DNA of 64,000 bases from Photorhabdus khanii NC19 (GTDB lineage Bacteria > Pseudomonadota > Gammaproteobacteria > Enterobacterales > Enterobacteriaceae), in assembly GCF_000517265.1 (NCBI RefSeq), contig NZ_AYSJ01000014.1, positions 670,740 through 734,739 on the forward strand, written 5' to 3'. Made by a program: the position numbers and the translations under genes. Below the pieces are notes generated by a model. It saw only the letters and a program-made list of their open reading frames with translations, was not told the origin of the DNA and did no database searches. This document shows, one piece after another, positions 2,411 through 4,792 of this stretch. Positions within the stretch are counted from its first letter, which is position 1, and every line of letters begins with the position of its first letter.

Positions 2411-2524
2411 ATGGAAAACGCGATTGAATTAGATGAATGGCTTGAAGAACCTACACATGATGATGCTGTTGAAATGATGAATGCACAAGCTATTGTACCC
2501 TTTGGTACAGCACTTTGGCCTTAA
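2411..2524 (+). CDS. 37-residue peptide, candidate RiPP-like precursor
   Basis: A short gene reading MENAIELDEW at the start and IVPFGTALWP at the end. It is acidic in the first two thirds (Glu/Asp rich, with EW and two EE/DD pairs) and hydrophobic and aromatic in the last ten residues, which contain no acidic or basic side chain. That leader-plus-core polarity is what ribosomally made, post-translationally modified peptide precursors show. There is no signal peptide and no cysteine, so it is not a lanthipeptide or a disulfide bacteriocin. A GAGA element precedes the ATG. It is followed by a perfect stem-loop and then by an M29-like metallopeptidase gene on the same strand. I do not recognise a named family. 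The alternative is a stand-alone regulatory micropeptide or a chance ORF. Confidence 0.6.
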   Translation: MENAIELDEWLEEPTHDDAVEMMNAQAIVPFGTALWP

Positions 2525-2564
2525 TGATTTCTATAATAAAGCCCTTAGCGGTTCTCTATAATTG

Positions 2565-2588
2565 AAGTAAGGGGGCTTCCCCTTACTT
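2565..2588 (+). promoter_or_regulatory. Perfect 10-bp stem-loop between peptide gene and M29-like gene
   Basis: AAGTAAGGGG (2565-2574) pairs exactly with CCCCTTACTT (2579-2588) across a GCTT loop. It is followed by A-rich sequence, not a T-run, and the next gene's ATG is 22 bases on. A leaky terminator or processing/stabilising hairpin here would give more peptide message than enzyme message. Confidence 0.6.
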
Positions 2589-2610
2589 AAAAGTAAATAG
2601 GATTGCCCTC

Positions 2611-3588
2611 ATGGATAAAAGTTTTGAAAATATGTATCGCTGTGTATCATATCACCCCGCAATTTTGGATAAGGTAAAAAAGGGTGAATGTATAAAAATA
2701 TTGATTGGATCTGATACTGAGCATAGCGATATTGCACAAAAGATGCATGGATATGAAAAGAATTTTAATGTAAAATCTGATTTCGCTTCTTTAGAAGAAA
2801 CATCAGTAGACAATATAAAACAAAAAATATCCGATTGTGATTTATTTATCTTTCTTTACGCATCATCAACATTAAAGAATGTATCTCCACAAGGGCCAGA
2901 ATATTTAATCAAAATAAGAAAATTTATTACTGAATCGTGGAAGAAATCAGTACTGTTTAAAGATTATGGTCCTCATTTTATTGAGGCATTCAGTGAACCA
3001 CAAACATCAATAACAGAAAGGAACCAAAAGCTGATTGAACTATCAAGTCAATCACAGAAGATTCAATATACAGATAATCAAGGAAACTCAATTATAGGTT
3101 ATTTGGAGAAAGACCATAAGTGGACGTCCATTGATGGTAATGGAAATCTTGATGTTATTCCTGGGGAAATTGCGAGCCATATAAAGAGTCTTAACGGTAG
3201 TGTTAGTTTTAGTGGCACCTTTTTGAGTACTGCGCCATTTGCCATAAAATATGGGGTTGTCAATGATATGATGACGATCAATATAAAAGAGGGTGAAATC
3301 ATTGGGTTTGATTGTGACAATGCAGAATTTAATAGAGACTTTAATTTATATCTAAACCATAATCACGGAAATCGTATTGTTGAAGAATTTGGTATTGGCA
3401 CCAACACGGGAGTGAAAGCGCTTTACGGCAGAAATGCAGGTTTTGAAGAACGCCATCCTGGTTTACATCTTGGCTTAGGGGGCGGTGTAAAGGGAAGCCA
3501 TCATTTAGATTTGATATTTTCTGGTGGAAAAATAGCATTTGATCAAACGACCTTTTTTGATAATGGCTATGTTGGTTATTTTCGTTAG
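2611..3588 (+). CDS. M29 (aminopeptidase T-like) metallopeptidase family protein
   Basis: A 325-residue cytosolic protein with no signal peptide. The C-terminal half carries the ordered metal-ligand motifs of the M29 aminopeptidase / NicX-like fold: PGEI at 184-187 (Glu186), EEFGIGTN at 258-265 (Glu259), FEE at 278-280, GLHLGLG at 284-290 (His286) and SHHLDL at 296-301 (His298, Asp300). The N-terminal half has the family's KKGECIKILIGSD strand. Members cleave N-terminal residues, or in the NicX branch open pyridine rings using iron. It is shorter than classical M29 enzymes (about 410). It lies downstream of the 37-aa peptide gene, so the natural hypothesis is processing or modification of that peptide; this is inference. 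The pair is absent from the equivalent E. coli interval, and the base composition is richer in A+T than the flanks. Confidence 0.7.
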   Translation: MDKSFENMYRCVSYHPAILDKVKKGECIKILIGSDTEHSDIAQKMHGYEKNFNVKSDFASLEETSVDNIKQKISDCDLFIFLYASSTLKNVSPQGPEYLIKIRKFITESWKKSVLFKDYGPHFIEAFSEPQTSITERNQKLIELSSQSQKIQYTDNQGNSIIGYLEKDHKWTSIDGNGNLDVIPGEIASHIKSLNGSVSFSGTFLSTAPFAIKYGVVNDMMTINIKEGEIIGFDCDNAEFNRDFNLYLNHNHGNRIVEEFGIGTNTGVKALYGRNAGFEERHPGLHLGLGGGVKGSHHLDLIFSGGKIAFDQTTFFDNGYVGYFR

Positions 3589-3640: not shown

Positions 3641-4792
3641 TTACCGGGCTACTCGTAACCCGCCTTCGATACCTTTTGGGCTGAACATGATTTGCCATAA
3701 TTGAATATCGCGCGCACGAAATGCACCTGCACTGGCATTCAGGTAATAGCTAAACATGCGTTTAAATGTTGGGCTATAGTTATCTTGTATTTCCGGCCAA
3801 CGGGCAATAAATCTTTCATGCCAGGCCATCAGTGTGCGATCATAATCTGCACCAAAATTATGCCAATCTTCCATAATAAAACGGCTTTTGCTGGTGTGTG
3901 CTATTTGCTCAATAGAAGGTACGCAGCCATTGGGAAAAATATATTTGCTGATCCATGGGTCAGCGCTGACTTTGCTTTTGTTGGAGCCGATGGTGTGCAG
4001 CAGGAATAAACCATCAGGTTTTAGGTTTCTTTGAACAACGTCGAAGTAGGTCAAATAATTTTTAGGCCCAACGTGTTCAAACATACCAACAGAAACAATT
4101 CTGTCAAATTGCTTATGTAAATCCCGATAGTCTTTCAGAATAATGTTTACGTCCAGATCTGCACATTGTTTCTGGGCATATTTCTGTTGTTCAGCTGAAA
4201 CGGTTACTCCGGTTACGGAAACACCATAGTTTTTCGTAGCATAACGCGATAGCCCTCCCCAACCACACCCAATATCCAGCAAGGTCATACCTGGAGAAAG
4301 TTCTAACTTCTCGCAGATGAGCTTCAATTTATCAAGTTGAGCTTGTTCCAATGTTTCTGCTTGTTTCCAATAGCCGCAGGAATATTGCATATAAGGGTCA
4401 AGCATATGGGTAAAAAGATCATTGCCTAAATTATAATGTTTATGACCGACAATCCATGACCGTTTTGGTGTTTGTAAATTACGTAAGCGGGTTACTGCGA
4501 TTTTCAGTGTATCTTTGAAATTATTGGGCATTTTATTTTCTAATCCAGCACGTAAAACGCGATAAAAGAAAATATCTAATCGCTCACAATCCCACCAGCC
4601 ATCCATATAGCTTTCACCTAATCCCATTGAGCCCTGTTGTAAAACTCTTTTATAGAAATCAGAGTTTTTTACCTGGATATCATAGGGATTGTGACCATTA
4701 ATCTGAATCCCTGCTTCTTGTAGCATTTCATTAGCAATTCGCTGCCAGGAATTAGTGACGGTTTTTTGGTTTTCAATGTGCGATGAACTCAT
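3641..4792 (-). CDS. cfa: Cyclopropane-fatty-acyl-phospholipid synthase
   Basis: Transfers a methylene from S-adenosylmethionine onto cis double bonds of membrane phospholipid acyl chains, which protects stationary-phase or acid-stressed cells. The 383-residue product matches the E. coli length (382). It has the SAM motif LDIGCGWGGLSRYA, the FEHVGPKNY active-site segment and the C-terminal YYLNASAGAFRARDIQLWQ, typical of CFA synthases. GGAGAG lies 5 bases before the ATG. In E. coli cfa follows ribE directly; here the peptide/M29 pair separates them. About 290 bp upstream to punC leaves room for its own promoter. Confidence 0.97.
   Translation of the reverse strand: MSSSHIENQKTVTNSWQRIANEMLQEAGIQINGHNPYDIQVKNSDFYKRVLQQGSMGLGESYMDGWWDCERLDIFFYRVLRAGLENKMPNNFKDTLKIAVTRLRNLQTPKRSWIVGHKHYNLGNDLFTHMLDPYMQYSCGYWKQAETLEQAQLDKLKLICEKLELSPGMTLLDIGCGWGGLSRYATKNYGVSVTGVTVSAEQQKYAQKQCADLDVNIILKDYRDLHKQFDRIVSVGMFEHVGPKNYLTYFDVVQRNLKPDGLFLLHTIGSNKSKVSADPWISKYIFPNGCVPSIEQIAHTSKSRFIMEDWHNFGADYDRTLMAWHERFIARWPEIQDNYSPTFKRMFSYYLNASAGAFRARDIQLWQIMFSPKGIEGGLRVAR

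Follow-up and report, generated by a model that had tools for sequence, protein, structure and literature searches.

The 64,000-nucleotide stretch of Photorhabdus khanii NC19 DNA considered here (the window; contig NZ_AYSJ01000014.1, positions 670,740 to 734,739) carries two co-directional open reading frames (ORFs) on the + strand: one of 37 codons (2411..2524), encoding a precursor-like peptide, and one of 325 codons (2611..3588), encoding a CgnB-like protein with an M29 fold and two predicted metal ions. The two genes almost certainly work together, and the favoured reading, to which a probability of about 0.6 is given, is that the peptide is a substrate matured by the protein. The pair would thus be a RiPP-type cassette (ribosomally synthesized and post-translationally modified peptides) reduced to a self-contained minimum of two genes. 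A short candidate precursor gene is kept beside the gene of a putative modifying protein, the arrangement by which a RiPP locus is recognised. A sequence-only reading of this DNA had proposed a precursor-like peptide and one metalloenzyme as a functional unit, a proposal now well supported by adjacency, by profile matches and by the ratio of nonsynonymous to synonymous substitution (dN/dS). The maturation would be RiPP-like and would employ an M29-fold peptide-binding protein, a variation on a kind already described; the breadth of its occurrence and the near-constant core of the peptide are surprising.

Conservation of the gene pair

The peptide gene adjoins a member of the protein family, on the same strand, in 72 of the 75 loci whose surroundings were read, duplicate loci of one genome being counted once. 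Of 12 Photorhabdus loci (eleven named ones besides the window), 11 have the pair, as do 8 of 9 loci of the sister genus g11, all three Burkholderia records, the single locus of genome G651, and every locus opened in genera g369 (23/23) and g399 (21/21). It also occurs in five of five diverged g399 copies (L135–L139), which represent a second copy in four genomes and the only copy in G1243. In the twelfth Photorhabdus locus, from P. noenieputensis, the contig begins 166 bases upstream, and in the matching genome, G331, the peptide is found close to the end of a different contig. Genome G360 holds a 148-residue relic of the metalloprotein (L040, 6863–7309) with no peptide gene seen nearby; it was counted as a miss (0/1). 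The gene order is reversed in five g11 loci, where the peptide gene follows the protein gene. The count covers the opened g369 and g399 loci, a part of all the matches there; in two of 39 such loci the peptide was located by reading and not by pattern, and for L117 the strand of the protein ORF was taken from the g399 profile match. It leaves out three genomes with more distant M29-like proteins that lack this peptide (G1024, G1061, G1131), as well as G323 and G328 of the window's genus, where by coordinates the peptide lies beside the protein gene. The idea that the peptide would be conserved next to M29-like homologues has therefore survived this check, and the expected co-occurrence beyond Photorhabdus is borne out in g11, g369, g399, Burkholderia and G651.

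The protein gene is present in all 12 genomes from the window's genus, 9 of 30 of g11, 73 of 199 of g369 (among them G1058, a weak match over 28 positions) and 51 of 65 of g399 (among them G1274, a fragment of 85 positions); G1058 and G1274, near which nothing was recognised, stand in these tallies and outside the pair counts. It also occurs in G651 and in three named Burkholderia replicons, while a sample of the order yielded it in 3 of 295 genomes, namely that of the window and two from g11. In the window's genus and in g399 it is mostly single-copy, and the nearest named relative found, from P. tasmaniensis, is 97% identical. Among plasmid records the family appears in three large Burkholderia replicons only, and a scan of viral contigs gave no relative. 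The peptide profile matches every one of the 12 genomes from the window's genus and 8 of 30 of g11, all eight within the nine that carry the protein gene. In the phylum sample it matches 6 of 398 genomes, all within the seven with a strong protein match, the seventh being G177 of g11; the samples used for the two genes were of the same size and seemingly of the same genomes. A peptide match in G1023 was rejected as a weak, out-of-frame stretch of a transporter-like gene. Since several g399 loci encode exactly the peptide of two named Burkholderia records, g399 is suggested to be Burkholderia; Xenorhabdus for g11 and Pseudomonas for g369 are guesses.

The full peptide of the window, MENAIELDEWLEEPTHDDAVEMMNAQAIVPFGTALWP, consists of an acidic N-terminal part (approximately residues 1–27) and a nearly invariant uncharged tail, (I/V)VPFGTALWP. 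Four representative peptides bear 9–11 Asp/Glu against 0–1 Lys/Arg. The sequence-only reading had likewise noted a leader-like acidic part and an uncharged tail, IVPFGTALWP. Residues L7, W10, T15, A19, M23, A27, V29, P30, G32, T33, W36 and P37 are invariant in 19 aligned peptide rows. Beyond these rows P30A is seen once (L081), and the diverged g399 copies L135–L139 combine G32A with P37A in a tail that reads AVIPFATALWA. The Trp is unchanged in every peptide seen. Nothing follows the Trp-Pro in Photorhabdus (except for His at L032) or in G651, while elsewhere the next residue is Val, Ile, Leu, Phe or Met; the tail ends in LWP, MWP or FWP, with or without one further residue, or in LWA.

Selection at the codon level points in the same direction. 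Pooled pairwise estimates of the Nei–Gojobori type put dN/dS near 0.07 in the window's genus (0.068, 11 distinct peptide genes), with 0.064 in g11 (8 genes), 0.146 in Burkholderia together with g399 (17 genes) and 0.095 in g369 (21 genes). These values are purifying in all four lineages, as codon-level constraint on a real gene had been expected to make them, and, together with the profile matches across genomes, they show that the peptide ORF is not a chance one. Scans of the 19 peptides against Pfam and NCBIfam returned chance matches only, and four strings of the tail are unmentioned in the PubMed Central (PMC) literature. The pair is common in the sampled genomes, yet neither gene matches a Pfam or NCBIfam model. 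ORFs as short as this one are easily missed in annotation.

The metalloprotein and the surroundings of the pair

The 325-residue protein is predicted to adopt an M29-like fold without additional domains. Its six putative metal ligands are invariant among 29 aligned proteins: Glu186 (3166..3168), Glu259 (3385..3387; Glu258 is invariant too), Glu280 (3448..3450; so is Glu279), His286 (3466..3468), and His298 with Asp300 (3502..3510), all on the + strand. The window genome has one family match only, and in this single copy the ligand set is intact. Glu161, Glu252, Glu274, His280, His291 and Asp293 of CgnB follow one another in the same order, and Glu280 and His286 stand six residues apart, as do Glu274 and His280. 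CgnB is a dizinc protein of crocagin biosynthesis; according to PMC10070186, CgnB and its partner CgnE bind the 21-residue peptide CgnA, probably descend from M29 enzymes, and showed no aminopeptidase activity.

What the family lacks is the tyrosine loop. The two histidines are separated by 12 residues, and in all 29 proteins the position seven residues after the first is occupied by A, V, E, Q or I, whereas five M29 proteins taken for comparison have Tyr at this position in 5/5 and a spacing of 33–34. In the M29 enzyme LmAmpII this tyrosine, Y352 (H345+7), belongs to the catalytic EEHYHD set, and its mutation abolishes activity (PMC7023490). Because the Tyr loop is gone and the spacing is 12 as against 33–34, the protein, though M29-derived, is not expected to act as an ordinary aminopeptidase of the M29 family; its loop is closer to that of CgnB, where the spacing is 11 by the published numbering. 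The earlier statement that all ordered M29 metal-ligand motifs are kept stands for the ligands, with the correction that the catalytic Tyr is lost; the accompanying remark that the protein is shorter than classical M29 enzymes is correct (325 residues versus chains of 397–413). No match to the M29 family model PF02073 was obtained for the window protein or for any of the 29 sequences at E-values up to 0.1, nor anywhere in the window genome at 0.001. Neither the two window proteins nor the 29 family proteins matched Pfam or NCBIfam beyond chance, and PDB sequence searches with the family returned unrelated or weak matches only.

A spacer of 86 bases separates the two ORFs and contains a hairpin 3′ of the peptide gene (2565..2588, + strand; a 10-bp stem, 2565–2574/2579–2588, with a 4-nt loop in the minimum free energy fold), followed by AGGA (2599..2602, + strand), a possible ribosome-binding site of the metalloprotein gene. 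The hairpin noted in the sequence-only reading is real, though taken alone it is only modestly better than shuffled sequence (z −1.93; 8 of 200 shuffles fold equally well), and it lacks a T-run and for that reason was not scored as a terminator. Since the z-score of a single spacer is modest, it is the recurrence across lineages that forms the evidence. A hairpin lies between the two genes in 15 folded spacers from all five lineages, with stem sequences that differ between lineages and z-scores of −0.7 to −3.4 in the ten spacers that were shuffled; in L021, where the spacer has 203 bases, it is not directly 3′ of the peptide gene. In the loci with a downstream peptide gene, a compact hairpin again lies 3′ of that gene (5/5, folded with no shuffles), and none equally compact stands out 3′ of the enzyme gene.

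Upstream, the pair is bordered by ribE (1527–2183; NF009566, 1.6e-90) and, on the other side, by cfa on the minus strand (3641–4792; NF008686, 1.7e-201). The earlier observation of two + strand ORFs between these genes is confirmed in position, strand and flanks.

A proposed maturation and its rivals

In the favoured scheme, the product of the small gene would be a precursor whose acidic leader, ELDEWLEEPTHDDAVEMM, is probably helical and whose core, VVPFGTALWP, spans some ten residues; the second gene would supply one CgnB-like M29-fold protein with two metal ions and without the M29 catalytic Tyr loop. The protein would bind the leader and carry the core to the metal site, where the core may be altered near the invariant Trp by ring closure, oxidation or a cut, and a housekeeping protease may then trim the leader. 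The conserved peptide gene at the side of the protein gene in 72 of 75 loci is indirect evidence for binding of a precursor peptide. The hairpin 3′ of the peptide gene could serve to protect the message for the peptide or to terminate it, leaving peptide in excess of enzyme. The near-constancy of the core from genus to genus makes it probable that the product is a single conserved small molecule (a signal, a cofactor or a metal ligand) rather than a fast-evolving antibiotic, and points away from an antibiotic arms race. PQQ (pyrroloquinoline quinone) and mycofactocin are peptide-derived cofactors and offer a parallel to such a conserved core. A bolder and rather doubtful version is that one dimetal protein of the M29 fold suffices as a complete tailoring enzyme, that it performs Trp oxidation or ring closure, and that the product is one signal or cofactor common to Photorhabdus, Burkholderia and several other proteobacterial genera. 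Such chemistry is thinkable because the fold also hosts the aromatic-ring dioxygenase NicX, the best structural match.

Several observations weigh against maturation of the peptide by the protein. A comparison of ORFs of at least 60 codons in 19 loci of five lineages (E 1e-8) revealed no third gene common to all lineages; the comparisons against Photorhabdus are complete, and a few two-lineage matches appear among the matches listed, e.g., a 480-residue ORF shared by g369 and g11. As the lineages have no transporter, leader peptidase or tailoring enzyme in common there, either one protein does the whole job or unlinked genes help. Certain lineages have lost the gene or carry it disrupted. In G177 the protein gene lies at a contig end, and no peptide occurs anywhere in the assembly. 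In P. akhurstii DSM 15138 (L011, 8001–9500) the protein gene is interrupted after approximately residue 249, with an IS200/IS605 transposase gene between its two parts; the upstream peptide gene is intact, so the strain apparently tolerates losing the protein. As to descent, PDB sequence-profile searches found neither CgnB/CgnE (6zsv, 6zsu) nor M29 chains, and M29 aligned only weakly at the profile level (hhalign probability 2.2, E 0.021). CgnB and CgnE without the dioxygenase CgnC gave no observable product from CgnA (PMC10070186), the leader of CgnA is basic while that of the window peptide is acidic, and the CgnA core ends in Ile-Tyr-Trp while the window core ends in Leu/Met-Trp-Pro(-x), with no Tyr-Trp end. 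Finally, a regulatory or inhibitory peptide would yield the same genomics.

This last point leads to the strongest rival, in which the peptide controls the enzyme as a pseudo-substrate, an inhibitor or an activating subunit, its C-terminal tail plugging the metal site while the protein acts on other substrates. The tail is nearly constant, as an inhibitory plug should be, no tailoring or export gene is common to the lineages, and the protein might offer a docking site for the acidic part. This reading is nevertheless unlikely, given that the catalytic Tyr loop of M29 is gone, that the described relatives with a peptide partner, CgnB and CgnE, belong to RiPP synthesis (PMC10070186), and that the hairpins 3′ of the peptide gene suggest a peptide made in excess.

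Somewhat less probable is mere trimming, by which a dedicated metallopeptidase would free an unmodified signalling or metal-binding fragment. The M29 descent of the protein fits this, and so does the residue past Trp-Pro, which is variable or absent, as if dispensable. However, the same missing catalytic Tyr speaks against it, aminopeptidases take N-terminal residues whereas the conserved part here is the C terminus, and the absence of aminopeptidase activity recorded for CgnB and CgnE in PMC10070186 argues in the same sense.

A toxin–antitoxin or immunity pair, one member being toxic to the cell and its partner protective, would account for two small linked genes with a patchy distribution (9 of 30 genomes in g11), but is very improbable: the near-invariance of the tail in different genera is not what toxins and antitoxins show, the protein gene occurs mostly as one copy in all twelve genomes of the window's genus and in 51 of 65 of g399, and a PADLOC scan of four proteins found no convincing family (one Cas2 match, 0.004 over 38 residues). 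A reading of the short ORF as an attenuator, a regulatory leader for the metalloprotein gene, would agree with its upstream position and the intervening hairpin in most lineages, but selection acts on its amino acids, and the idea was rejected because the downstream gene order in five loci contradicts a leader role.

Comparison with known systems

The M29 aminopeptidases AmpT, PepS and AmpS (2ayi, 4icr/4ics, 1zjc; PF02073) have in common with the window protein the fold and the ligands E, E, H, H and D; they differ in their longer chains and in carrying the catalytic Tyr loop (His+7), whereas the window protein has neither the loop nor a Pfam match. A PMC search found no literature linking M29 with RiPPs or biosynthesis. 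NicX, the 2,5-dihydroxypyridine dioxygenase, is an iron extradiol enzyme and is not known to have a peptide partner. Its structures (7cn3, 7cup) have the fold in common with the window protein at 12% identity; judging by the PDB titles, NicX acts on a small aromatic ring, while the window protein has a peptide partner gene.

Three further loci contain M29-like proteins beside short ORFs other than the peptide described here. At L063 (6655–9003) a 402-residue M29-like protein (profile match 9.6e-17, profile positions 138–319 of 330) is preceded by a different short ORF and followed by a homologue of the aKG-HExxH peptide beta-hydroxylase (TIGR04267, E 4.3e-10, 39.9 bits against a cut-off of 40). 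This is apparently a separate RiPP locus and gives an independent hint that such M29-like proteins belong to peptide tailoring. In g369, L140 (3850–5246) encodes a 394-residue M29-like protein with a different short ORF of 64 codons closely upstream, and L141 (3670–5131) a 376-residue one with an upstream short ORF of 84 codons, or 55 from an inner ATG. The short ORFs of L140 and L141 matched no NCBIfam or Pfam family at 0.01, and these loci are possibly other peptide + M29-fold pairs.

The closest described system is that of crocagin. With CgnC, CgnB and CgnE build a tetracycle on the core Ile-Tyr-Trp, and homologues of the two proteins, 21–42% identical to each other, occur in about 100 genomes, Gamma- and Betaproteobacteria included (PMC10070186). 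Those present as a single copy are described in the same source as having intact metal sites and candidate precursors nearby, predicted by RiPPER, so that the peptide reported here may already figure in its supplementary predictions; PMC12710340 does no more than cite the crocagin work. Structural alignment of the window protein with CgnB/CgnE (6zsv, 6zsu) gives 13% identity. Crocagin has CgnB plus CgnE and the dioxygenase CgnC, whereas the window pair has one copy, no linked dioxygenase (its neighbours being ribE and cfa) and no oxygenase gene common to its loci. The features of a crocagin-like biosynthetic gene cluster (two copies with CgnC, a Tyr-Trp core end and a basic leader) are thus not those of the pair. 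The sequence-only reading could match the layout to no known class; this has to be qualified, since CgnB/CgnE are the nearest described proteins of this fold that have a peptide partner, and it is only partly right. CgnB denatures on metal removal, and consequently the role of the metal could not be tested in the crocagin work (PMC10070186). The pair, with one protein and one peptide, provides a stripped-down system for asking what CgnB-type dimetal proteins do chemically.
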